Below are positions 6,001 through 61,587 of a stretch of 64,000 bases of DNA, piece after piece. The notes under the pieces were generated by a model, which was not told where the DNA came from, did not search any database, and saw only the letters and a program-made list of their open reading frames with translations. The position numbers and the translations under genes were made by a program. Within the stretch, counting starts at the first letter, position 1, and each line of letters starts with the position of its first letter. The stretch comes from Nocardia anaemiae NBRC 100462 (GTDB taxonomy: Bacteria; Actinomycetota; Actinomycetes; Mycobacteriales; Mycobacteriaceae): assembly GCF_001612725.1 (NCBI RefSeq), contig NZ_BDAZ01000004.1, positions 124,001 to 188,000 on the forward strand, given 5' to 3'.

Positions 6001-6385
6001 GCACCGGGACTCCCGCCTGTCGTGCGGCCTCGCGTGCCGACAGTTTGTTGCCGAAGATGCGCAGCACCTCGGGCGACGGCCCAACGAATATCAGACCGGC
6101 CGCCGCGCACGCTGCCGCGAAGTCGGCACTCTCACTGAGGAATCCGTAACCGGGATGCACCAGCGCATCGGCTCCTGCGCTCTTTGCCGCGGCGACAACG
6201 GCGGCGATGTCGAGGTAAGCGGCGGCACCGATGCCCGGCAGTCGGATCGCGTCATCGGCCAGACGCACCGGCAGTGTCGCCGCCTCTTCGCCGGTATACA
6301 GCGCGAGGGTCGAGTAATTCCGCTCGCGGGCTGTCCGGATCACCCGGACCGCCACCTCACCCCTGTTCGCCACCACCACATGCAT
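3059..6385 (-). CDS. Fused biotin-dependent acyl-CoA carboxylase (BC-BCCP-CT)
   Basis: A single polypeptide of about 1108 residues carrying all three activities of an acetyl/propionyl-type CoA carboxylase. Biotin carboxylase (about 1-465) has the ATP-grasp loop GGGGRGM and the catalytic EVNPRLQVEHTVTE segment. The biotin carrier domain (about 525-595) has EAMKMQH with the biotinylated Lys near 558. The carboxyltransferase half (about 610-1108) ends KALTAATVLELDDVIDP. Most bacteria split these into two or three proteins. The start is set at the ATG giving MHVVVANRGEVAVRV, which matches family N-termini; two upstream ATGs fall inside the palindrome at 6400-6421. The divergent TetR gene and shared operator suggest ligand-controlled expression. 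The acyl-CoA substrate cannot be told from sequence. Confidence 0.9.
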   Translation of the reverse strand: MHVVVANRGEVAVRVIRTARERNYSTLALYTGEEAATLPVRLADDAIRLPGIGAAAYLDIAAVVAAAKSAGADALVHPGYGFLSESADFAAACAAAGLIFVGPSPEVLRIFGNKLSAREAARQAGVPVLPATSVGADLAEISAFFADHPSGVMLKAAAGGGGRGMRAVHTADALADSLDRCRAEARTSFGDDTIYAEALAADARHIEVQVIADGYRAVTLGDRDCSIQRRHQKLVEVAPAPNLPAALRERLHRDAIGIAESVSCRGVITVEFLVTASDAWFLEVNPRLQVEHTVTEAVTGVDLVAVQLDLASGATLHELALGDLVSLRMRTDRVGPAGADDAEANGFVGDPLSSVRGFAVQARINAEMVTAGGQVLPSTGVLTEFAAPTGVGVRVDTAAFTGMRQGAQFDSLLAKIIAQAPTYSAAIRRCSDALAETVIAGVDTNASLLRAVLNQLADGVRTTSWFEENIGELHSRAGDYAPTVAQMGGSTAGNSPHSRAEHRNPAVVDPTASGDPEVALEADEQAMRSPMGGTVVSLAEPGSIVPTGAEVVVLEAMKMQHVLRAEQSLRVSRHLVAPGATVDPHALLIAWIPADHDGPAADIEAIDLDAARADLAEVRERHRIGLDAGRPAAVAKRHNLGRRTARENIADLVDEDSFLEYGALAVAAQRLRRSPEDLIANTPADGLIGGIATINADRFGAEAARALVMSYDYTVLAGTQGMRNHAKTDRMLELAHEQRLPVVFFTEGGGGRPGDTDYSGISGLDVTTFRAMGALSGRVPLVGIVSGRCFAGNAALLGMCDVVIATPDANIGMGGPAMIEGGGLGVYAPEDIGPIDVQRRNGVVHIVCADEAEAVAAARRYLSYFQGPLQDWTAPDPRLARHVVPENRLRAFDIREVIAAVADVDSVLELRRDWGVGVVTALIRVEGRPFGLIANDCHHLGGAIDAPAADKLSAFLQLCNAHGLPIVSLCDTPGFMVGPEAEKQATVTKFSKLFIDSAALTVPLGTVIIRKGYGLGAQAMAAGSFRAPRFVIAWPTGEIGGMGLEGAVRLGFAKELAAIEDPHKRQEAFDNLVQLAYANGKALTAATVLELDDVIDPADTRRWIRTLR

Positions 6386-6399
6386 GGCGCCAGTCTGCT

Positions 6400-6421
6400 T
6401 TGACATTGACGTCAATGTCAA
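6400..6421. promoter_or_regulatory. Perfect 22-bp palindromic operator
   Basis: A self-complementary 22-bp sequence made of TTGACATTGAC followed by its exact reverse complement, with no spacer. It lies between the divergent carboxylase gene and the TetR gene, 14 bp from the carboxylase start and 13 bp from the TetR start. It is most likely the site bound by the adjacent TetR regulator, controlling both promoters. Confidence 0.8.
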
Positions 6422-6434
6422 CGACGATGGATCA

Positions 6435-7046
6435 ATGACACAGGCAGGCTGGTCGGTCCGTGCGGCGCGGGAACGATCACATACCGACCGTCATCGCGCG
6501 CTGCTCGATGCCGCCGCCCGCGTCTTCGCCGAGCACGGCTACGACAAGACGACCGTCGCCGATATCACCGCCGCCGCAGGCGTTTCCCGCGCCACGATGT
6601 ATGTCTACTTCGCCTCCAAGGACGAAATCTTCCTCGCCCTCGCCGCCCAGGTCCGCGACGATTTTCTGGCCGCCCAGGAACCCGATATCGATACCGACGA
6701 TCCTCGAGCGATGCTCGCCGCCACCATCGATGCCTTCGCCGCCGCGGTCCGCACCGCCGGACCGATGCTGCGCCTCATCGATGAACGCGGCGCCGTCGAC
6801 GACCGAGTCGCCGTGCTCGCCGAGGAAATCGCCGAACGTCCCATCCGCCGCTTCACCCGCTACCTCGAACGCCTCCACACCGCGGGCCGCATCTCCCCGA
6901 TCGTTCCGCCACGAGTCATCGCCGAAACCATCGGCTATGCCTTGACCCGCGGCGCCCTCACCCGCGCGGACGCCACCCCACGCGCCCGCGCCACCTACCT
7001 TGCCCACATGCAGACGGTCGCCGAAACCCTCTTGTCCCCAACTTGA
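6435..7046 (+). CDS. TetR/AcrR family regulator of the carboxylase
   Basis: A 203-residue one-component repressor. The N-terminal DNA-binding domain reads RALLDAAARVFAEHGYDKTT, then VADITAAAGVSRATMYVYF, the canonical TetR helix-turn-helix with its YxYF end. The C-terminal part is the variable ligand-binding region and predicts no ligand by itself. The chosen start is the ATG at 6435 (MTQAGWSVRAAR); an upstream in-frame ATG at 6384 would place the operator inside the coding region. It is divergent from the acyl-CoA carboxylase with the 22-bp palindrome between them. An acyl-CoA or fatty-acid-derived effector is a reasonable inference. Confidence 0.88.
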   Translation: MTQAGWSVRAARERSHTDRHRALLDAAARVFAEHGYDKTTVADITAAAGVSRATMYVYFASKDEIFLALAAQVRDDFLAAQEPDIDTDDPRAMLAATIDAFAAAVRTAGPMLRLIDERGAVDDRVAVLAEEIAERPIRRFTRYLERLHTAGRISPIVPPRVIAETIGYALTRGALTRADATPRARATYLAHMQTVAETLLSPT

Positions 7047-22581: not shown

Positions 22582-22744
22582 CCATCGCGACAGCCGACTG
22601 GGCGGCCGAAAAGCTCCTGCCGCATAGCTTTTCAGGACCTCGCAAAGGGTATACGTTCTGCGAGGTGGCCACCGGGTATGCGACGGGCCCGAAGCTGTGC
22701 GAGGAGGTGGACGCTACCCGCGTGGCGCGGGGCGCCAGCCGTCG

Positions 22745-23257
22745 TCACCGCCGAGGGTGCAGCAGCAGTTCGGCGATAGCTTGCACGCGGGCGCGGGTGA
22801 TGCCCATTCTCTGTTCCACGGCCAACGGGTGGTCGGTCGGTTCGAGTTCCACGGTCGGACGAACACCGACGGGCTGACTGTGCACCTTGGCCTTCAAGTT
22901 CAGAGTCGTCGGTTCGTATGCGGGCAACTCGGTGGACAGCCAGCCGAAATAGGGTGGCTCCTGTATCCGCTCGGGGCTGGTCCACAACTCCGTCGCGCGG
23001 GCGAAGCTGGACTCGCTCAGTGAAACCCATACGCCCCATTCGAATTCGTTCCCTGAGTCCGCGATGGGCAGGATCAGGCGCGCCCGGATGAAGAAGTGTT
23101 CGCCGCCGATCACACACTGCTCGTCGCCGAGGACGTTTCCCGAGCCGCCCGCCAGGCCCTCGTTCCAGTACGCGGGCGCCACCGTGCCATAGCTGAATGG
23201 CAGTCCATCGTGTTCCTGGCCGCAGCATGAGCACAGAAATCCTGGATCCGTTGACAT
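22745..23257 (-). CDS. DUF2199 domain protein
   Basis: A 170-residue protein of the DUF2199 family, function unknown. It starts MSTDPGFLCSCCGQEHDGLP; the CxCC..H arrangement could bind a metal. The middle part ERIQEPPYFGWLSTELPAYE and the tail PTDHPLAVEQRMGITRARVQ are typical of the family. A longer in-frame extension upstream lacks protein-like composition, so I set the start at the ATG at 23257. It is an apparently solitary leftward gene. The intervals before and after (about 125 and 220 bp) hold nothing else I recognise, apart from the repeat at 22477-22581. Confidence 0.75.
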   Translation of the reverse strand: MSTDPGFLCSCCGQEHDGLPFSYGTVAPAYWNEGLAGGSGNVLGDEQCVIGGEHFFIRARLILPIADSGNEFEWGVWVSLSESSFARATELWTSPERIQEPPYFGWLSTELPAYEPTTLNLKAKVHSQPVGVRPTVELEPTDHPLAVEQRMGITRARVQAIAELLLHPRR

Positions 23258-23382
23258 GCCGACAGCATAGAAATGCGACTTCCCGCTATCGATGGCGGCT
23301 GTCAGGCGATCGATAAGCCCCGATCGTCCGGTTTCCGCTTCTAGCGGCAATCGGGTCGAACTGTGGCAATCCGGTCGTGGTG

Positions 23383-24591: not shown

Positions 24592-25500
24592 ATGATCCTG
24601 GTAACCGGCATCTCCGGAGCCCTCGGCGGCCTCGTCCACCGCGGCCTGTCCACCCTCGACGACCTGACAGTAGCGGCGGGCAGCCGCTCCGGTGACGACA
24701 TCACCACGCGCCGTATCGATTTCGACGACCCGGCGACGCTGTCCACCGGCCTGCGGGATGTCGATGTCCTGGTCCTGATTTCGGCCGGATACGCCGAAGA
24801 CGATGTGGTGTTGGCCCGCCACGGTGCGGTGATCGACGCCGCCGTGGCGGCCGGTGTCCGGCACGTGATCTACACCAGTCTCGCGGGATCCGGCGATCTG
24901 ATGACGATCGCCCTGCCACACCGCTGGACCGAAAAGCGCCTGGCCGCAGCGCCTTTCGACGTGACCGTCCTGCGCAATGGCCTCTACGCGGAGGTGCCGG
25001 TCGGACTCGCCGTCGCCGGTGCCGCCTCCTCGGCCGAATCGGATGTATTCGCGGCGGCATTCGGCACCGGCCGGATCTCGGTGGTGGCGCGCGAGGATCT
25101 GGCCGAGGTGGCCGTTCGGGTAGCCGCGGAAACCGAGCGTGATCTGGCCGCAGGGCAGCCCAGCAGACATGCGGGCAAGGTATACGAGCTCGAGGGTGTG
25201 ACCGCGATCGGCGGTCCGGATATCGCCGAGATCCTGAGCGAATCCCTCGCTCGCCCAGTCCGATACGCGCCGATATCGCTCGGCGAAATGCGGGATATGT
25301 TGCAGGGCAGCGGATTGGAGCCATACCAGATCACGCATACCCTCTCGCTGTTCGCGAATCTCGGTGCCGGACTACTCGAGGCATCGAGCACCGACCTCCT
25401 CGAGCTGCTGCCGAGCGCACCGCGCGACGTTCGGACACTCATCACCGACGCCGTGCAGGCGGGCGGGTTTCAGTCGGCATCGGTAAACGCGTCGCGCTGA
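24592..25500 (+). CDS. NmrA/QorB-like NAD(P)-binding oxidoreductase
   Basis: A 302-residue atypical SDR. The cofactor-binding N-terminus is MILVTGISGALGGLVHRGL, followed by VDVLVLISAGYAED and HVIYTSLAGS, as in the NmrA/QorB group of NAD(P)H quinone or redox sensor proteins. It lacks the classical YxxxK catalytic pair, as is usual for this subgroup. The ATG at 24592 has GGGAG about 9 nt upstream; an upstream frame is open but not protein-like. It is divergent from the HxlR gene. Its 3' end borders the Tn3 remnant that starts within about 30 bp. Confidence 0.85.
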   Translation: MILVTGISGALGGLVHRGLSTLDDLTVAAGSRSGDDITTRRIDFDDPATLSTGLRDVDVLVLISAGYAEDDVVLARHGAVIDAAVAAGVRHVIYTSLAGSGDLMTIALPHRWTEKRLAAAPFDVTVLRNGLYAEVPVGLAVAGAASSAESDVFAAAFGTGRISVVAREDLAEVAVRVAAETERDLAAGQPSRHAGKVYELEGVTAIGGPDIAEILSESLARPVRYAPISLGEMRDMLQGSGLEPYQITHTLSLFANLGAGLLEASSTDLLELLPSAPRDVRTLITDAVQAGGFQSASVNASR

Positions 25501-25531
25501 ACGGCAGGCCGGGTGAGGCCACGAATGTCCA

Positions 25532-25753
25532 GTCGCCACCGCGCTCGAGGAGTACGGTGCCCTGCGCCGCACCGTCTACGCCGCCCGCTACCTGTCCGAT
25601 CCAGACTATCGGCGCAAGATCTCCCGCCAGCTCAACAAGGGCGAATCCCTGCACGCGCTGCGCCGAGACCTGCTGTACGCGCACGAGGGCACGATCCGCG
25701 CCCGCCAACTCGACGACCAGACCGAGCAAGCCTGGTGCCTGCCCCTGGCCACC
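25532..25753 (+). pseudogene. Tn3-family transposase remnant, internal segment
   Basis: A 222-bp piece of a Tn3-family TnpA gene. The reading VATALEEYGALRRTVYAARY, then KISRQLNKGESLHALRRDL and EQAWCLPLAT, matches the conserved region just before the C-terminal domain. It has no start codon and stops matching at the LAT triplet, the point where the minus-strand copy (NAVIAWTTEYYG) and the downstream plus-strand copy resume. It is therefore the left part of a TnpA gene cut at one codon. Everything 5' of VATALEEYG is missing. Confidence 0.85.
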
Positions 25754-25764
25754 ATGGGCGGGTT

Positions 25765-25987
25765 CAGAACAGGTGTCGCGCACTCGCAGAGGCCGATAAC
25801 CGGTCGGCCCCAACTGGGTCGAGTTCGGCGTCGATGTCGACCTCGATGGCGCCGAAGAAGTTGATGTTCTCGCTGTGCGCCGGGCTGATGTGCGCGAGCA
25901 CTTCGTCATCGATCCGGCGTCCGGCTCGGCGCATCTGTTCCACGGCGAGCCCGTAATACTCTGTGGTCCAGGCGATTACGGCGTTGC
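25765..25987 (-). pseudogene. Tn3-family transposase C-terminal fragment, frameshifted
   Basis: Minus-strand copy of the TnpA C-terminus: NAVIAWTTEYYGLAVEQMRR, RRIDDEVLAHISPAHSENIN and FFGAIEVDIDAEL are readable. An extra A then shifts the frame (near 25813), and the rest, LGPTGYRPLRVRDT, is in another frame. It lies head-to-head with the plus-strand segment ending at 25753. Its 5' edge abuts the truncated alpha/beta hydrolase gene. Confidence 0.85.
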
Positions 25988-26247
25988 AGTGCCGGGCCCG
26001 GCACCCGGGAACCGGTGTCGCCGAACACACGGACCCGCGCACCGTCACCGAGATCGGTGACCACGGCGGCGGGATGCGGGCGGGTGCGTGCGGCAAGGCG
26101 GCGCATCAGCGGCAACGTGCGTGGGCTGACGGTTTCGCGGGGTAGTGCCAGCGCGTACGGGCGCAGGTCGCGGTGGTAGCGCCGGTACTGGCGGAACCGG
26201 ACAACCGGGTTCGTGCGGGTGGCCGGTGGGGTCGCTGCGCTGGTCAT
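25988..26247 (-). pseudogene. Truncated alpha/beta hydrolase gene
   Basis: The ATG at 26247 overlaps the P450 stop codon (ATGA), giving tight translational coupling. About 86 codons are readable: MTSAATPPATRTNPVVRFRQ, RDLRPYALALPRETVSPRT, then VVTDLGDGARVRVFGDTGS and RVPGPAL. At this point an alpha/beta hydrolase of the lipase/esterase type would continue into its HGGG oxyanion motif. Instead the frame runs into the inverted Tn3 transposase fragment, so the catalytic part is lost. The hydrolase identity is inferred from the N-terminal pattern only. Confidence 0.6.
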
Positions 26248-27449
26248 GCGGGGGTGAGCGACAGGTTCAGGTGCGCCAGGCGGCGCACGATCAGGCTGGG
26301 GACGTAGGCGGGTTCGGGGCCGCTCAACGAGAAGGTGGTGGTGGCGGCGAGCAGTGCACGCACGGCCTGGGTGGTTTCTTTGCGGGCGAGGTGGGCGCCG
26401 AGGCAGAAGTGGATGCCGCGGCCGAAGCTGTGGTGCATTTTCGGCTGGGCACGGTCGAGGTCGACGTGGTCGGGGTGGTCGAAGACGCGGGGGTCGCGGT
26501 TGGAGGCGCCCCACATCAGCATCAGTCGTGCGCCTGGATCGAGGCGTACACCGGCCAGCCGGGTGGGTGCGGTGGTGATGCGGAAATGGCCGCGGGACGG
26601 GCTCTCGATGCGCACCGCTTCCTCCACCAGCGCACCGATCCGGTCGGGTTCGGTGCGCAGGGTGGCTTGCAGTTGCTGATCGTCGGCCAGCAGCCGTACA
26701 GCGGTGCCGAGCAGGCTCGCGGTCGATTCCGCGCCCGCGGTGACCAGCTGCACCAGCAGCATCGCCCCCTGATCACGGGTCAGGGTTCCCGACGCGACCG
26801 CCGCGGCGACACTGCCCAGCACCCCCGTGTCCTGCCCCGGGCGGGCCTGGTCGAGGCGCTCGCCCAGATACCGGGCGAACTCGAGCACCGCGAGCGCGGC
26901 GCGGCCGGCGCGTTCGGGGCTTGCGATCCCGGAGACCAGATCGATCGCCGCGTCCGACCAGTCGGCGAGGCGCTGATGGTCTTCGCGCGGCAGCCCGATC
27001 AGCTCGCCGATCACCTGCACCGGGACCCGGTGGGCGACCGCGGCCATCCAGTCGCCGCCGCCGGAGGCGACCAGCCCGGCTATCGCCGGGGCGACCGCGG
27101 CGTCGATCAGCTCGGTCGTCTCGGCCACCGCACGCGGGCTGAACCGCGACATCACCAGTGCCCGCTGCGGGGTGTGTGCGGGCGGATCCGCGGTCGCCAG
27201 CACATCCACCCCAGCCCCGGCGTGGGCCACCGACACCGTCGCCGACCCCGACGCCGCCGACAGCACCGCGACCAGATTGCTCGAATAGGTTTGCGGATCG
27301 GCCAGCACGGTGCGGATCGCATCGAACCCGAGCACCACATACACCTGCTGATCAGGCAGATAATGCACGTCCCCGGTACCACGCAGTTGCTCGAGCAGCG
27401 GATACGGGTCCTGCAGTGCCTCGGCGCAGAACAGATCGGGAACAGCCAT
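26244..27449 (-). CDS. Cytochrome P450
   Basis: A 401-residue bacterial P450 that should activate O2 with electrons from a ferredoxin and reductase not present in this window. Heme-binding loop FGRGIHFCLGAHLAR with Cys349; I-helix AGAEST at 238-243 (the usual acid/Thr pair appears as E and S/T); ExxR with Glu277 and Arg280. The ATG at 27449 has GAAAGG 8 nt upstream. It is divergent from a TetR gene, with a 30-bp palindrome centred 31 bp before its start. It is coupled through ATGA to a hydrolase gene that a Tn3 remnant has cut off. The gene itself looks intact. Substrate unknown. Confidence 0.92.
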   Translation of the reverse strand: MAVPDLFCAEALQDPYPLLEQLRGTGDVHYLPDQQVYVVLGFDAIRTVLADPQTYSSNLVAVLSAASGSATVSVAHAGAGVDVLATADPPAHTPQRALVMSRFSPRAVAETTELIDAAVAPAIAGLVASGGGDWMAAVAHRVPVQVIGELIGLPREDHQRLADWSDAAIDLVSGIASPERAGRAALAVLEFARYLGERLDQARPGQDTGVLGSVAAAVASGTLTRDQGAMLLVQLVTAGAESTASLLGTAVRLLADDQQLQATLRTEPDRIGALVEEAVRIESPSRGHFRITTAPTRLAGVRLDPGARLMLMWGASNRDPRVFDHPDHVDLDRAQPKMHHSFGRGIHFCLGAHLARKETTQAVRALLAATTTFSLSGPEPAYVPSLIVRRLAHLNLSLTPA

Positions 27450-27464
27450 CACAACCAGCCTTTC

Positions 27465-27494
27465 ACACGTTGTATAACACGTTATACAACGTGT
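27465..27494. promoter_or_regulatory. Operator with perfect 14-bp arms between P450 and TetR
   Basis: ACACGTTGTATAAC, then AC, then the exact reverse complement GTTATACAACGTGT. Twenty-eight of 30 bp are in perfect dyad symmetry. It lies 15 bp from the P450 start and 25 bp from the TetR start, and includes AT-rich TATAAC elements that could be promoter -10 boxes. It is almost certainly the binding site of the adjacent TetR. Confidence 0.88.
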
Positions 27495-27519
27495 TCTCGT
27501 TCTGCGGTACCCTCGAACG

Positions 27520-28155
27520 GTGGTCGACGACACTGCTGCTCTGCTGCGCGAGTCCCGCGATTCGTTGCGGATGGTCCGCGAATTCGGTCCCGCCGAACGC
27601 GCGCGCCGCGCCGAGATCGCCGCGGTCGCACGCGCGATGGCCTCCCGGCACGGCTACAAGGGCGTCACGATCCGCGCGGTCGCCGCCGAGGCTGGCACCA
27701 CCCCGGTCACCGTGTACCGCTACTTCGGGTCCAAAGACGGTCTGATCCAGCACCTCATGGCCGACTGGGCCCTCGACACCCTCGACCGCCTCACCCGGCT
27801 ACCGGCCGATCCCGGCGCCGAGCCCGCCGACCGGATCGCCGCCGCGTTCTCCCAGGTCATCGACTGGGCCGCCGAGGACCACAACCTGCTGCAAGCCGGA
27901 ATGAACTCCGTGCACTCCGGCGACGGCCCCGGAATAAGGGTCTGGCGGCCGCTGTTCACCGAACTCGTCCGCGCCGCCCTCGCCGACCCCGGCTGGACCG
28001 ACGACCACGACCGAGCCCTGGTCCTCGGGCACGTCCTGACCACATGCCTGCTCGACCTGACGACCAATCCCGCCAGTATCACCGACATCCGCCATACCAT
28101 CGCCCGTGCGGCACACCTGCTCTTCGCCACATCCACCCCGAACTGCCGCCCGTAG
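27520..28155 (+). CDS. TetR family regulator of the P450 unit
   Basis: A 211-residue regulator beginning at a GTG. It has about 25 residues of N-terminal extension, then AEIAAVARAMASRHGYKGVT and IRAVAAEAGTTPVTVYRYFG, the TetR helix-turn-helix ending in VYRYFGSKDGL. The ligand-binding part follows from about residue 85. No ribosome site is evident, so translation may be leaderless from a promoter inside the palindrome. It is divergent from the P450 with a 14-bp-arm operator. Its stop lies about 65 bp before a Tn3 transposase fragment. Confidence 0.88.
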   Translation: MVDDTAALLRESRDSLRMVREFGPAERARRAEIAAVARAMASRHGYKGVTIRAVAAEAGTTPVTVYRYFGSKDGLIQHLMADWALDTLDRLTRLPADPGAEPADRIAAAFSQVIDWAAEDHNLLQAGMNSVHSGDGPGIRVWRPLFTELVRAALADPGWTDDHDRALVLGHVLTTCLLDLTTNPASITDIRHTIARAAHLLFATSTPNCRP

Positions 28156-28202
28156 CTCAGTACCAGCTGACGCACCGCTATGCAGCGCCTCCGGCCCATC
28201 GG

Positions 28203-28221
28203 CCACTACCCCGGATAACGG
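28203..28221 (+). repeat. 19-bp repeat, copy A
   Basis: CCACTACCCCGGATAACGG lies exactly at the left edge of the plus-strand Tn3 transposase fragment. A near-identical 19-bp copy (17 of 19) lies at 31489-31507 in the same orientation, just past the Rieske/dehydrogenase cassette. It may be a mobile-element end or a recombination scar. Confidence 0.5.
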
Positions 28222-28490
28222 TCTGGACCACAGAATATTGCGGGCTCGCTGTCGAGCAGATGCGCCGAGCGGGCCGTCGGATCGATGACGATGTGCTTGC
28301 ACATATCAGTCCGGCACACAGCGAGAACATCAATTTCTTCGGCGCGATCGAGGTCGACATCGACGCCGACCTCGCCCTGCTCGGGCCGACCGGCTACCGG
28401 CCGCTGCGAGTGCGTGACACGTTGTTCTCAGCCTGCTCACCGCAGCCGGGCACCGGCGGGCATATCCGCAGTAGGGGCCGCGGCTGGTGA
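28222..28490 (+). pseudogene. Tn3-family transposase C-terminal fragment
   Basis: Plus-strand TnpA C-terminus: VWTTEYCGLAVEQMRRAGRR, IDDDVLAHISPAHSENINFF and GPTGYRPLRVRDTLF, then a short tail to a TGA at 28490. It is open throughout but lacks the whole N-terminal protein and a start. It begins at the same TnpA codon as the inverted copy at 25765-25987 and picks up where the 25532-25753 piece ends. It is probably the right part of the original gene. Confidence 0.85.
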
Positions 28491-28508
28491 GTGCGGTCGA
28501 GACCCGGT

Positions 28509-29126
28509 TCAGTTTTCGAGGTAGGCGACGATGCCGCCGATGAGCGCTTCGATAGCGTCGTCGAGGTCGCCGTATGTGCCGAGAGTTCGCTCGGAGGTGA
28601 TGCCGCGCATGGCGGCCGGGATCAGCGCCGCGACCCGGCGCACCTTGACCGGATCGAGTTCCAGATCAGCGAAGGCCCGCTGGCATGCGTCGTCCCAGTG
28701 CGGTTTCCAGGACGCCAGCTCGGCGGCGGTGAGCGGGTAGTCGCGTTCGAGTTCGGCGTGGTCGCGGGGCAGCGCCGCGCGCAGCGTCTCGATGGCCAAA
28801 GACTCGGGGCGGCGCAATCCGATGGCCATCGCGTGGATGAGCGCGGCGACGCGTTCGCGCAGGGTGCCGTCCGGTTTGGCTGCTGCGGGCAGGTCCCCGC
28901 GCTTGTCGGCGGTGTAGCGCAGGACCGCGGCCCACAGGCCGTCGATGTCGCCGAACTGATATTTGACGACTCCCCAGGTCGCGCCGATGTCGCGGGCGAT
29001 CCGGTTGCCGGAAACCGCGGCGGGGTCCCCGGTCGACAGCGAGGCGATCGCCGCGTCGAGCATGGCTTCCCGCGATTGGATCCCGCGCTTGTTCGCGCGC
29101 CTCATGCCCGCCGCTGTCTCCGTCAC
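28509..29126 (-). CDS. TetR family regulator of the Rieske unit
   Basis: A 205-residue regulator starting at GTG 29126 (an ATG at 29105 is an alternative). The N-terminal region MRRANKRGIQSREAMLDAA is basic; the helix-turn-helix reads VSGNRIARDIGATWGVVKYQ with FGDIDGLW after it. It differs from the common YxYF ending, as in subfamilies associated with steroid or terpenoid catabolism (weak inference). It is divergent from the Rieske oxygenase gene, with a 9-bp-arm inverted repeat between them. Its 3' end lies 18 bp from the end of the Tn3 fragment. Confidence 0.85.
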   Translation of the reverse strand: MTETAAGMRRANKRGIQSREAMLDAAIASLSTGDPAAVSGNRIARDIGATWGVVKYQFGDIDGLWAAVLRYTADKRGDLPAAAKPDGTLRERVAALIHAMAIGLRRPESLAIETLRAALPRDHAELERDYPLTAAELASWKPHWDDACQRAFADLELDPVKVRRVAALIPAAMRGITSERTLGTYGDLDDAIEALIGGIVAYLEN

Positions 29127-29172
29127 GAGGGCCGATGCTACCTCGATCGACCTGGGGAATCCAGTTTCAACT

Positions 29173-29201
29173 AACCCTCTTGTATTCTTTCAAAGAGGGT
29201 T
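29173..29201. promoter_or_regulatory. Operator between TetR and Rieske genes
   Basis: AACCCTCTT and AAGAGGGTT form perfect 9-bp arms separated by 11 bp. It lies 47 bp upstream of the TetR start and 78 bp upstream of the Rieske start, in an AT-rich stretch with a TATTCT element. It is the likely binding site of the adjacent TetR regulator. Confidence 0.75.
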
Positions 29202-29278
29202 CTATTGTCGTGTTCGCCGGGCATGGAACCGACGTTCCGCGCCGACACGGACAGCCCGCGAAGACGTGGAGGATCGAG

Positions 29279-30325
29279 ATGGCCAAACCACCGCTGTCGA
29301 TGGAGCCGACGGGATGGTTCCAAGTCGCGTGGTGCACCGAGATCGAGGTCGGTGCGGTGCACAGGATGAAGTACTTCGGGCGTGAGATGGTGGCGTGGCG
29401 ATCGGCTGCCGGCGACCTCGCGGTCTTCGACGCCTACTGCGAGCACCTCGGCGCGCACCTGGGCTATGGCGGGCAGGTTCAGGGCGAGAACCTGGTGTGC
29501 CCGTTCCATGGCTGGGAATGGAACCGTGAGGGCCGCAATGTGTGCATCCCCTACGAGTCCCGCCCGAACAAGGGCCGCCGCATCCGCAGCTACCCCGTCG
29601 TCGAACGTAACGAGGCGGTGTGGATCTGGTACGACACCGCGGGCCGCGCACCGTATTTCGAGGTGCCGGACATGTTCGAAGCGTTCGGTGACGGCAAGAC
29701 CGCCGCGGACTACTACCCGCCGGTGCCTGCCGCGACATTGTTCCGGCCGGGCCTGGAACTGCATCCGCAATATGTGATGGAGAACGGCGTCGACTTCGCG
29801 CACTTCAAGGTGGTGCACAAGACGCCGTTCGTGCCGGAGTTCACCCGTCACGATTTCTCCGGCCCGGTGTCCTACGTCGATTTCACCATCGCCTTCGACG
29901 AGGACATCGCCGAGGACCAGGTCAACAGTGGTGTGGAATCGATCAACGCCGGATTGGGCTGTTCGATCACCAAGAGCTGGGGCATGGTCGACAACCGCAC
30001 CATGCCCGCGGTGACACCGGTCGACGAATACACATCCGATGTGCGCTTCACCGTGTGGATCGGCCGCAAGCCCGGCGACGAACGCCCCGAGATCGGCCGC
30101 TACGGCACGACCATGGCCGGATTCGTCATCGAGCAGTTCGAAGCCGACATCCACATCTGGGCGCATCAGCGCTACTCCGACCCGCCCGCCCTGTCGCAGA
30201 AGGAGTTCAAGGGCTTCACGGCGTTGCGCGAATGGGCCGTGCAGTTCTACCCCGACGGCGGACCCGCGGGCACCGACCCACGTCACCCCGACAGCGGCGC
30301 CGTGCGCCCGGCGGCCACCGCCTGA
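29279..30325 (+). CDS. Rieske non-heme iron oxygenase, KshA-like
   Basis: A 348-residue oxygenase component. The Rieske [2Fe-2S] ligands are Cys54/His56 (YCEHLGAHLGYGG) and Cys74/His77 (CPFHGWEW). The mononuclear iron site is ENGVDFAHFKVVH. The nearest family I recognise is 3-ketosteroid 9alpha-hydroxylase oxygenase (KshA) and related terpenoid or aromatic hydroxylases, which need a separate reductase not seen here. The ATG at 29279 has GGAGG upstream. The next gene, 54 bp downstream, is a dihydrodipicolinate-reductase-like dehydrogenase, so the two form an operon. Regulation is likely by the divergent TetR. The substrate is unproven. Confidence 0.88.
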   Translation: MAKPPLSMEPTGWFQVAWCTEIEVGAVHRMKYFGREMVAWRSAAGDLAVFDAYCEHLGAHLGYGGQVQGENLVCPFHGWEWNREGRNVCIPYESRPNKGRRIRSYPVVERNEAVWIWYDTAGRAPYFEVPDMFEAFGDGKTAADYYPPVPAATLFRPGLELHPQYVMENGVDFAHFKVVHKTPFVPEFTRHDFSGPVSYVDFTIAFDEDIAEDQVNSGVESINAGLGCSITKSWGMVDNRTMPAVTPVDEYTSDVRFTVWIGRKPGDERPEIGRYGTTMAGFVIEQFEADIHIWAHQRYSDPPALSQKEFKGFTALREWAVQFYPDGGPAGTDPRHPDSGAVRPAATA

Positions 30326-30379
30326 ACCTCCCCCCGACCCAGTACCGACGCGAACGTAACAGCCAGAAAGGCACTGCTC

Positions 30380-31465
30380 ATGAGCACCTCCGACAAGATA
30401 CGGGTATTCCAGGTCGCCACCGGCAACCTCGGCACCGAGATGATCGGCCGCATCCGCAACCACCGCGATCTGGAACTGGTTGGGCTGCACTGCTACTCGC
30501 CCGAGAAGATCGGCCGGGACGCGGGAGAGATCGTCGGTATCGACCCGGTCGGTGTGAAAGCCACCGGCACGATCGAGCAGATCATCGCCGCACGCCCCGA
30601 CGTGCTGACCTTCCACGGTGTGTTCCCGGACGAGGACCTCTACGAAAAAGTCCTCGAAGCAGGGATCAACGTGGTGACCACTGCGGACTGGATCACCGGC
30701 TTCCACCGCGACCGCAACCACTCACATCCCTCGGGCCGCAAGGTCAGCGAGGTCATCCAAGCGGCCTGCGAGCGCGGTAATTCCACGTTCTACGGCACCG
30801 GCATGAATCCGGGCCTGTGCCAGATCCTGGGGATCGTGCACACCGCCGACGTCGCCGATATCGAGAACGTCACCGTCACCGAATCCGTGGACGTGTCCTG
30901 CCATCACTCCGTGGACACCTGGAAGGCCGTCGGCTACGGCCGCCCGATCGACGATCCGACCATCCCCGATTCGCTCTACAAATACACCGCCGTATTCGCC
31001 GATTCGGTCTACCTCATGGCCGATGCCTTCGGCCTGGAACTCGACGAGGTGAAATTCAGCTACGAACTCGGCGCCTGCACCAAGGACGTCGACCTCGGCT
31101 GGTACTTCATGCCCAAGGGCTCACTCGGCGCCAATTACATCAAATACCAAGGCATGGTCGACGGCGTCGCACGAGTGGAGACCCACCTCGAATGGCAGAT
31201 GACCTCACACACCGACCCCGCATGGAACATCAAGGGCTGCTACATCACCCAGGTCACCGGCGACCCCAACATCTACAGCAAGCACATGATCTTCCCGCGT
31301 AAGGGCTTCGACCTGTCGAACCCGGAGAACTTCGCCTCCATCGGTATGACCGTCACCGGCCTGCCCGCCCTCAACGCCATCAAATCCGTCGTCGCCGCCC
31401 GACCCGGCATCATCACCAGCGCCGAGCTTCCCCTCCGCGGCTTCGCCGGCCGCTTCAACATCTGA
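30380..31465 (+). CDS. Dihydrodipicolinate reductase-like NAD(P)-dependent dehydrogenase
   Basis: A 361-residue protein with an N-terminal Rossmann domain (KIRVFQVATGNLGTEMIGRI) and an alpha/beta C-terminal domain, as in the dihydrodipicolinate reductase / 2,4-diaminopentanoate dehydrogenase-like group. It is much longer than DapB (about 245-270), so lysine synthesis is not its role. Members are often near P450 and Rieske genes in actinobacterial catabolic clusters (family impression, to be checked). AAAGG lies 8 nt before the ATG. It is co-oriented with the Rieske gene after 54 bp. A strong hairpin follows 30 bp after the stop. Confidence 0.78.
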   Translation: MSTSDKIRVFQVATGNLGTEMIGRIRNHRDLELVGLHCYSPEKIGRDAGEIVGIDPVGVKATGTIEQIIAARPDVLTFHGVFPDEDLYEKVLEAGINVVTTADWITGFHRDRNHSHPSGRKVSEVIQAACERGNSTFYGTGMNPGLCQILGIVHTADVADIENVTVTESVDVSCHHSVDTWKAVGYGRPIDDPTIPDSLYKYTAVFADSVYLMADAFGLELDEVKFSYELGACTKDVDLGWYFMPKGSLGANYIKYQGMVDGVARVETHLEWQMTSHTDPAWNIKGCYITQVTGDPNIYSKHMIFPRKGFDLSNPENFASIGMTVTGLPALNAIKSVVAARPGIITSAELPLRGFAGRFNI

Positions 31466-31488
31466 CCTCTCCCCGGCCACCGACTCTG

Positions 31489-31507
31489 CCACTGCCCCGG
31501 ATAAGGG
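31489..31507 (+). repeat. 19-bp repeat, copy B
   Basis: CCACTGCCCCGGATAAGGG, matching copy A at 28203-28221 in 17 of 19 positions and the same orientation. It overlaps the left arm of the hairpin at 31495-31521. Confidence 0.5.
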
Positions 31508-31521
31508 GCTGTTATCCGGGG
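31495..31521. terminator. Hairpin after the dehydrogenase gene, candidate terminator
   Basis: CCCCGGATAA, a 7-nt loop, then TTATCCGGGG: a perfect 10-bp stem 30 bp after the stop of the dehydrogenase gene. No T run follows, so it would be a non-canonical actinobacterial terminator. A smaller hairpin with the same TTATCCGGGG arm (CCCCG and CGGGG around TTATC) follows at 31574-31588. Because the arm also occurs in copy A at 28203, a mobile-element end is the alternative reading. Confidence 0.55.
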
Positions 31522-31747
31522 AAACATCGGATCCGGCCCGCGGCGATCCCGCCGCGGCGGCGACGTGAAATGACCCCGTTATCCGGGGCAACAGCGGAAG
31601 GCGGGGGTACCGATGGCCGCGAGCGTTACACTGACACTCCTCAGCGCTCGCCCCAGCAGCCGAGAAGCGCTCCTGGACAAGCGATCACGTGGAACTTTCG
31701 GCTGGGGTCCTCTGCCGCCACCAGTTCCACGTGATCGGCCGACCAAC

Positions 31748-33928
31748 TCAGGTGACGCGCTCGAGGGCGCGTAGGTCGGCGTCGAGTTTGCGGAAGAGCC
31801 AGTAGATGGCTACGAATGCTAGGCCGGAGCCTGCGCACAGGGCCAGCACCGAGTCGCGGACCAGGGGGAGTTCTGCTGGTTCGAGGAAGCTGAATCCGGC
31901 TAGCACGCCGACTAGTGGCACCGACGCTGTCACCGCTAGATAGGCCGTGATTCTGCGGCGCAGTGCACGGAGATGGGCGGCGTCGTGTGCCGATGTGCGG
32001 CCGTGGCGCAGGTAGATGGGATAGATACAGCGGACGACGTAGAAGGTGGAAAGAAAGAAGGTGTAGGCGACGGAGATGGTGCCCGCCACCAGAACGGTGG
32101 TCGCCGCATGGACCAGCAGCCGCGCCGGTAGGTCGGTGAACCAGACAAGCAGCATCACCCCTGTCACGGTCGCGCATACCGCGAAAAACAGGGTGTTCAT
32201 CGCACAGAGATCGCCCCAGAACAGTGTTCGCGACCGCACCCGCGCGAGGATCGCCTCGTCGTAGCGCTTTCCATCCCGCAAGCCGCGCGGAACCGCGAGC
32301 AAATCACGCGACATGTACGCGTAGATGAGGATGGCCAGCGGCGAGGCGCAGATGACGAAGATGATGACGCCCACGTTGAGCTGCCAGTTGGTGGCATCGG
32401 ACAGCCGCTCCCTGATCAGGTCCTGGACGTGCACGGCCATGTACATGGTGGCCAGGGTGACGCCGAACAGCGAAGACGACCACAGAATGGCGGTGGGCCA
32501 TCGGGAAAGGCGTGCCCGCCAACTTTTCGGCGGCGGATAAACGAGGTCGCGTGCCCGTTCCTCGAGGCACAGGTCGAGTTGCTGGGCGAATTCCGAACCG
32601 CAGGAGTAGCGGTCTTCCGGATCGGGTGACAGACACTTCAGCAGCACTCGGCGCAACGCCATGGGGCAGTCCGGCGGAAGTTCCGACAGGAACGTCGGCT
32701 CGATGGGTCTGCGCCGCAGTTCGAGCATGCGGGCCAGTGACGTTTCCGACTCCCCCGCGGAGGCTTCGTCCGCGAAGGGTCGGTGTCCGGTGAGCAGTTC
32801 CCACAGCATGACGGCGAGGGCGTAGATGTCGCTGCGAGTGTCGAGGTCGGCGGCGCTCGCCGGGGAGTCCGGATGGCAGGCTTCGAGTTGTTCGGGCGAC
32901 ATGTACGCCAGTGATCCGCCGAAGTACGCCAACGGGTTTGTGCCCTTGACGCGGGTGCTGAAGCTGACGTTGAAGTCGGCCAGTTTAGGGATTCCCTCGG
33001 CGCTGAGCAGCACGTTCGCGGGTTTGATGTCGCGATGCAGCACCCCTCGTTCGGATGCGTGCTGCAGGGCGTCGGCGAGTCGGCGGCCCAGCCAGGCTAC
33101 GGTCTCCGGCCAGGTCAGTGCGGAGGTCCGGGTCCGAACAGCCGATTCGGTGGGCCGAACCTCGCCCTTGTCGGCGAGTACCTTGTCGATGGCATCGAGC
33201 AGCAGTTGCCCACTGCGGTGTTCCGCGGGCGTCGAGCGCTGTAGGCGCAGCACGTCGAGCAGCGTTCCCCCGGGTAGGTATTGCATGTAGAGCAGCTTCA
33301 GGTCGCCGTCGGCGATGAGTCGTTGGTCGTAGATGCGCACGATGTATTCGTGGTCCAGTTGGGCCAGGGTCTGCGGCTCGTTGCCGTGGTTATGCGAAAT
33401 CTTGACCGCGACCAGTCGCTGCATCGATTGCTGTCGTGCGAGAAACACCTGGGCGAAGGCGCCTGCCCCGATCCGCATCAGCAGGTCGAAATCGTCGATA
33501 CGGTCGCCGACTTCGATGGCGTCGAGAGCGATTTGGGCACTTGGTCGAGCAATCATCGTGCTGTGATAGTCGCTGGTGACCTGTGCAAACCCTGCTGTGG
33601 CCGCATCGATTGGGTGCGAACCGCGCCGCAGGGCGTGCAATTCCTCGTAGACCAGCTCGGCGGGTAGCGGGCCGTCTCGCAGCTCGGCGAATTCCGCGCG
33701 GTAATCGGTCAGTCGTTTGGGAAAGTGATAACGAAGCCAGCGGTATTCGAGGTCGATCTTGATCAGTTCGATCAGTATCGTGCGTCGCTCGGTCGGGTTC
33801 CGGGGCAGGTACGCCGACAGATCGGGCGGGGACCCGGACGCCCAAGCCTCAGAAAACGATGCCACGACAGTGGCCAGCGTTGTGCGGGTCCGTTCAGCTG
33901 AATCGACCAGATCGATCGGCTCGTACAT
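31748..33928 (-). CDS. Large membrane Ser/Thr kinase with planctomycete-like N-terminus
   Basis: A 726-residue protein. Residues 1-135 hold a helical segment (ILIELIKIDLEYRWLRYHFP, KRLTDYRAEFAEL) resembling the N-terminal region of many planctomycete Ser/Thr kinases. The kinase domain (about 148-455) has IGAGAFAQVFLAR, Lys176 in VAVKIS and HRDIKPAN (298-305), but DFN at 318-320 in place of DFG, followed by YMSPEQL. A long insert (about 228-272) separates the lobes. From about 478 the protein is membrane-embedded with about six hydrophobic segments and no obvious outer sensor domain. The ribosome site is weak. No close neighbour suggests a pathway. Kinase activity is plausible but the altered DFG deserves a test. 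Confidence 0.85.
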   Translation of the reverse strand: MYEPIDLVDSAERTRTTLATVVASFSEAWASGSPPDLSAYLPRNPTERRTILIELIKIDLEYRWLRYHFPKRLTDYRAEFAELRDGPLPAELVYEELHALRRGSHPIDAATAGFAQVTSDYHSTMIARPSAQIALDAIEVGDRIDDFDLLMRIGAGAFAQVFLARQQSMQRLVAVKISHNHGNEPQTLAQLDHEYIVRIYDQRLIADGDLKLLYMQYLPGGTLLDVLRLQRSTPAEHRSGQLLLDAIDKVLADKGEVRPTESAVRTRTSALTWPETVAWLGRRLADALQHASERGVLHRDIKPANVLLSAEGIPKLADFNVSFSTRVKGTNPLAYFGGSLAYMSPEQLEACHPDSPASAADLDTRSDIYALAVMLWELLTGHRPFADEASAGESETSLARMLELRRRPIEPTFLSELPPDCPMALRRVLLKCLSPDPEDRYSCGSEFAQQLDLCLEERARDLVYPPPKSWRARLSRWPTAILWSSSLFGVTLATMYMAVHVQDLIRERLSDATNWQLNVGVIIFVICASPLAILIYAYMSRDLLAVPRGLRDGKRYDEAILARVRSRTLFWGDLCAMNTLFFAVCATVTGVMLLVWFTDLPARLLVHAATTVLVAGTISVAYTFFLSTFYVVRCIYPIYLRHGRTSAHDAAHLRALRRRITAYLAVTASVPLVGVLAGFSFLEPAELPLVRDSVLALCAGSGLAFVAIYWLFRKLDADLRALERVT

Positions 33929-34159
33929 CGGTAGCTCGAGATCAGCCCCAGGCGATCACGGCGGCTACCCGCGATATCGGCCTGCATCGGAGTCGCCCCA
34001 CAGTGTCTCCCTTCCACCGAGCCCCTCGCTCAAGGGTATCGCTCGCAACGATGGGGCAAATAGTCCGGAATTCTCTCCCTCCGGACAACCGATGAACGAG
34101 TCGCTGACGCCGTTGTAATTCGGTGGCCGCGCCCTTCGGCTCCGAATAGGCTCGGGCAG

Positions 34160-61353: not shown

Positions 61354-61587
61354 GTTCCGTACCGTATCAGGGCACCAACTCGACATCAATCGGCCGGCGA
61401 GTCATACCGAAAAGGACCTCTTGCGAAATCTCGAAGCGCCACGCGATCTCGGCATGCGCCACTCCGCGGCCAGCACGATGATCCGGGCCCGATTTTCGGC
61501 CGGTACTACGGCGACCCCTTGCGCAGCAGCAGACGATCCGTGGCTATTTCACGAGCGGACAATGTAGACAGCGAACTCATCCGGCCA

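Follow-up and report, generated by a model that had tools for sequence, protein, structure and literature searches.

Genes and transposase remnants at the locus

The stretch of DNA analysed here, referred to as the window, comprises 64,000 nucleotides of the 8.6-Mb genome of Nocardia anaemiae (G000, contig C4, positions 124001-188000). It contains a gene for a cytochrome P450 (26244..27449, minus strand) and, divergent from it, a gene for a TetR-family regulator (27520..28155, plus strand; Pfam TetR_N, E 1.2e-14) with weak KstR-like matches that fall below the family cut-off. A palindromic site with 12-nt arms (27467..27492) lies between the two genes and, judged by its sequence pattern, is a putative operator. 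On the other side of the P450 gene is the 5′ fragment of a hydrolase gene of the hormone-sensitive-lipase type (25987..26247, minus strand), which is 87 codons long and cut before the HGGG motif; the fragment itself has no Pfam match, and full-length homologues are found at loci L029 (313 aa; Abhydrolase_3, E 3.5e-56) and L031. All of these elements of the P450 module are present between the transposase pieces, as the initial annotation had described. Membership in a P450 family is recognized by about 40% identity to the members of that family. The nearest solved relative of the window P450 is CYP144A1 of Mycobacterium tuberculosis (Rv1777, PDB 5hdi; E 9e-83 over residues 7-398), from which the Nocardia protein, apparently a CYP144-like homologue, differs in its TetR neighbour and in the hydrolase gene that accompanies some copies. 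Passages of one report describe CYP144A1 as kept exclusively within Mycobacterium (PMC4880925). A search for the P450 on plasmids gave no match at E 1e-60.

A second module (28509..31465) consists of genes for another TetR regulator (28509-29126, minus strand), a KshA_C/Rieske oxygenase (29279-30325, plus strand) and a DapB-like reductase (30380-31465, plus strand). It is followed by a Ser/Thr kinase gene (31748..33928, minus strand) with homologues elsewhere in genomes G120, G116 and G134; besides the window copy, the window genome holds only 69-70% matches to it.

The two modules are accompanied by three pieces of a Tn3-family transposase gene (tnpA), each alignable, with 83-94% per segment, to an intact TnpA frame of 1049 codons. 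Piece A (25533..25754, plus strand) corresponds to approximately codons 903-976 of the 1049-codon frame at L035 and has 96% DNA identity to a tnpA copy in G027, and piece C (25764..25986, minus strand) is an inverted and frameshifted tnpA 3′ end that runs from the residues NAV to the stop. Both match the Pfam family DDE_Tnp_Tn3 (PF01526; E 1.1e-20 for A and 4e-10 for C). Piece B (28223..28428, plus strand) is the 3′ end of a second tnpA copy in which the usual stop is absent; it has 91% identity to a copy in G039, and its peptide has no Pfam match at E 0.1. No intact tnpA was found in the window, which holds only these fragments. Further tnpA remnants are present on contigs C56, C63, C67 and C95 of the window genome (L004-L008).

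The end of A and the start of C coincide within 2 bp on the tnpA reference. At L035 their counterparts (6132-6351 and 6350-6572) overlap by 2 bp and meet at 6350/6351, and they adjoin likewise in other intact copies; in the window, about 10 bp separate the end of A from the stop end of C. To judge from these alignments, A and C appear to be neighbouring parts of one tnpA whose 3′-terminal 223 bp have been inverted in place, a flip observed in the window genome only. Pieces B and C span the same region of tnpA with 86% DNA identity, so that at least two tnpA copies lie at the locus and the three pieces are not, as had been proposed, parts of a single transposase. Identity profiles do not discriminate between C and B as the partner of A; the precise match of the ends favours C.

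The position at which B begins is less sharply defined. Its similarity to tnpA sets in some 14 nt inward of the A/C break, looser scoring carries it out to 28201, and its edge lies between reference positions 1044 and 1066 (a resolution of about 22 bp), as against 1050-1052 for the A/C break. The break point that the initial annotation assigned to all three pieces thus holds to within 2 bp for A and C, and for B it holds as a neighbourhood in which an identical codon is not demonstrable. The 84 nt upstream of B (28140-28223) were considered as decayed tnpA, a candidate that was rejected when shuffling gave no significant likeness (p 0.71 and 0.24 with two references, 500 shuffles).

An acquired island with an empty site in near relatives

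The three tnpA pieces, the P450 module, the Rieske module and the kinase gene together make up a block of about 8.6 kb (25496..34107, with an uncertainty of about 15-40 bp at the left edge) that is absent from the same site in G120 and G116, whose rpoB genes have 98% identity to that of the window genome (which has two rpoB genes, on contigs C12 and C18). Window positions 25495 and 34107 are 12 bp apart in G116, and positions 25495 and 34116 are 70 bp apart in G120, such that an NmrA gene and the gene at 34.16 kb nearly abut. No tnpA was found at the empty-site join in either genome. This implies that the tnpA pieces came with the island and did not belong to its target, contrary to the initial proposal that a P450 unit had been inserted into one transposase. 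Among the 11 left-flank loci compared, both flanks occur together only in G120 and G116; the contig of G009 stops at the join, and G052, G011 and G073 carry the NmrA gene (71-75%) in different surroundings.

Parts of the block are highly identical to more distant species, and for this reason the sequence comparison favours an addition in the window genome over a loss in both relatives. The block combines absence from the corresponding site of near relatives with a likeness to distant species that exceeds that of a core gene, the core-gene comparison being with rpoB only. The suggestion of horizontal acquisition made at the outset is therefore borne out by an empty site in both of the genomes that hold the two flanks.

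Tn3-family transposons generate a 5-bp target duplication. At the island edges, which are not sharp, no terminal repeat, recombinase or target duplication was seen (the duplication being judged by eye), and the duplications that had been anticipated at 25753 and 28222 were likewise not visible by eye. No Tn3-type terminal inverted repeat (a pair of 38 bp or longer) was found near the island, and a search with one integrase and one resolvase query gave no match to a resolvase gene in the window. With no repeat, recombinase or duplication seen at the edges, the final step may have been simple recombination instead of transposition.

Two features were noted to the left of the island. Approximately 680 bp of the window (22697-23376) are missing in G120 between matching flanks, and similar sequence occurs in other genomes, for example G112 and G083. 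In G116 a 27-codon tnpA remnant (L115:10918-10998; window equivalent 23372) is located at the opposite edge of the NmrA cassette.

The modules in other Nocardia genomes and the organization of Tn3-family elements

The Rieske module has 97% identity to G039, 95-96% to N. stercoris (G006, in two pieces) and 94% to N. veterana (G102, from 29149 on), while rpoB, a single core gene, has 90, 89 and 89% identity to the same genomes. Among the matches listed, G120 and G116 show likeness only to the DapB-like part, at 76-77%. The order of P450 module, B remnant and Rieske module is the same in the window, N. stercoris and N. veterana, and the outer flanks in the latter two match neither the window nor each other; the same compound is thus found at other sites in two species. 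The P450-regulator pair and the Rieske oxygenase cassette have likely moved together between Nocardia species. In many genomes the Rieske cassette is present from approximately the stop of its TetR gene onward, without the stretch adjoining B (28430-28508). Its association with the transposon is established in only four genomes, the flanks of the other carriers having lain outside the tnpA search.

A search of 149 other genomes of this genus at E 1e-100 located the P450 module in 11 (identity 79-93%), among them N. aobensis (G035), N. cerradoensis (G002), N. macrotermitis (G107), N. africana (G037), N. flavorosea (G108), N. veterana and N. stercoris. The operator-like palindrome, sought with a loose pattern, is present in ten of these copies, the exception being G130, where the match covers part of the P450 only. 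The hydrolase gene is full length in two copies (N. veterana and N. africana), broken in two (N. stercoris and N. aobensis) and not found beside the P450 in the remaining seven, of which that of N. cerradoensis lies 357 bp from a contig end. The loss of the hydrolase 3′ part that was initially proposed for the window is supported, and in these comparisons it is one of several such losses.

In 9 of the 11 copies tnpA is absent from the inspected flanks, which spanned some 7-9 kb on each side for G035, G037, G107 and G108, were short on one side for G002 owing to the contig end, and covered only about 1.5 kb for G140, G103, G131 and G130. The two copies with tnpA, in N. stercoris and N. veterana, have breakpoints that differ from those of the window. 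This is largely the pattern, P450 modules with no tnpA or with other breakpoints, that the initial annotation had named as counting against its reading. In N. macrotermitis, a 22-codon transposon-integrase remnant about 2.5 kb from the P450 module (L033:6540-6605) favours a transposon past there, as read from the sequence, and N. africana and N. veterana have weak recombinase matches far from the module.

Transposons of the Tn3 family are characterized by a DDE transposase, long related inverted repeats and passenger genes (PMC7157771). The locus resembles them in its fragments of a Tn3-type DDE transposase gene, and relatives of the element have the repeats and encode a tyrosine or serine recombinase; it differs in keeping only tnpA stubs, in holding two serial cargo modules, and in the oxidative-enzyme nature of the cargo. 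The intact relatives have the order inverted repeat, tnpA, cargo, recombinase, inverted repeat. Both repeats, of 43-46 bp, are present in four elements (L035, L036, L074 and L075), and in L073 the second repeat was not found. The long repeats were detected by self-BLAST, a generic repeat finder having returned only mixed pairs of 70-90%. Annotation places cargo genes behind tnpA in L074 and L075, and L035 has these in common with them; in L036 the tnpA is decayed and separated from the integrase by 1.7 kb. In passages of one published paper, N. cyriacigeorgica has two Tn3 signatures, one of them truncated, and N. farcinica one, with no cargo or P450 link described there (PMC3751702). None of the titles listed in a literature search dealt with the present locus.

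Remnants of this organization are also found around the modules themselves. In G039 a tnpA 3′ end is followed by the Rieske module and then by an integrase remnant. The hydrolase tail of N. stercoris has beside it, no more than about 10 bp away, a plus-oriented tnpA 3′ tail of 45 bp (L132:7102-7146; E 1.2e-7 with the best and 0.003 with the worst of five references, the best of 20 shuffles giving 0.001), and a second tnpA tail follows the TetR gene, so that the P450 module lies between two plus-oriented tnpA 3′ ends. In N. veterana the hydrolase side has an inverted repeat and not a tnpA tail: a terminal-repeat remnant is located about 115 bp past the stop of the intact hydrolase gene, with a score of 15.8 against at most -8.1 in three 20-kb shuffles and 0.3 for the best chance-like site in the window. 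The G039 order, the N. stercoris tails and the N. veterana remnant fit two transposon cargo slots in series. The tnpA tail of G039 (L032:15530-17000) adjoins a different sequence, close to the tnpA position at which B begins.

Probable history of the compound and competing explanations

We consider it probable (roughly 0.72) that the locus holds the decayed remains of Tn3-family transposon cargo, in the form of a compound that was acquired horizontally and has spread between Nocardia species, a reading in which the link to an old Tn3-type transposon suspected from the start is supported. Two cargo modules would have been placed in series, each behind a tnpA 3′ end and in the same direction, with hydrolase-P450-TetR behind one end and TetR-Rieske-DapB-like behind the other. 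The compound would then have spread among Nocardia species and reached N. anaemiae within the island of about 8.6 kb, between the NmrA gene and the gene at 34.16 kb. Later, the last 223 bp of the left tnpA stub would have been inverted in a local event and the 3′ part of the hydrolase gene lost, and these two changes would account for the present arrangement of A, inverted C and a cut hydrolase. The island, the empty site, the presence of two tnpA copies and the recurrence of the compound in two other species are observed, whereas we infer the cargo status of both modules, the mode of their fusion and the flip. Points that weigh against this reading are the island edges without transposon features, the restriction of the flip to one genome, the shortness of the left stub in N. 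stercoris, the inverted repeat in place of a tnpA tail in N. veterana, and the many Rieske cassettes that lack the stretch adjoining B. The whole is ordinary mobile-element biology with a tidy cargo-stacking pattern.

The best-surviving alternative, which we nonetheless regard as improbable, is that the LAT/NAV point is a recombination hot spot of tnpA to which unrelated cargo has been joined repeatedly. Besides A/C, remnants start nearby in G050 (1030-1050, depending on the reference), G019 (1047-1049) and G008 (1052-1054), and the G039 remnant and B perhaps also begin in this neighbourhood, but the starts of remnants range widely, from about 600 to about 1200 of the reference. A rough hand tally of about 27 truncated copies in 40 genomes placed two within 5 nt of the break (p 0.17), and the hot spot was rejected as not significant; three near the break would give p 0.04. 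The G050 remnant comes from beyond the 40 genomes and was noticed post hoc. In G008 an internal tnpA deletion joins reference positions 117 and 1054 directly (L111, contig C39); a direct repeat inside tnpA was considered as its cause and set aside, the two compared stretches being unlike by eye.

Slightly less credible still is chance decay, in which several old tnpA remnants, unrelated to each other, would be found beside a native P450 unit by coincidence. Sequence of this gene is common: 25 of 40 genomes gave 45 matches, with intact copies counted in, many matches are 3′ remnants whose 5′ ends vary, and the window genome has further copies. Against this, two other species show the order of module, B and Rieske module at different sites, and the nearest genomes lack the block at the syntenic position. 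Insertion of a P450-TetR-hydrolase unit at one codon of a resident tnpA, leaving A and B as its two parts and with C carried in or duplicated, would explain why the end of A coincides with the start of C and why B starts within about 22 bp of the same point, but is very improbable given an empty site without tnpA, the 86% identity of B and C over one tnpA region, the occurrence of the module next to B but without A in N. stercoris and N. veterana, and edges at which no duplication was seen.

The reading as decayed transposon cargo replaces a single-event story with one in which a local flip in one stub can yield shared breakpoints. It also suggests a likely route for the joint movement of a P450-regulator pair and a Rieske cassette between Nocardia species, and indicates that transposase tails can mark old cargo borders. 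A more tentative extension, which we think possible without favouring it, is that the tnpA 3′ ends of this Tn3 subgroup serve as homology handles, recombination among the tnpA genes of distinct transposons stacking catabolic cargo modules and leaving the tails as scars between them; were this so, short tnpA tails would mark cargo borders across Nocardia genomes. Outside the island, the window carries one further trace of the same Tn3 subgroup, a terminal-inverted-repeat remnant beside a TetR gene (61476-61518, minus strand), with a score of 22.2 as compared to at most 0.3 elsewhere in the window.
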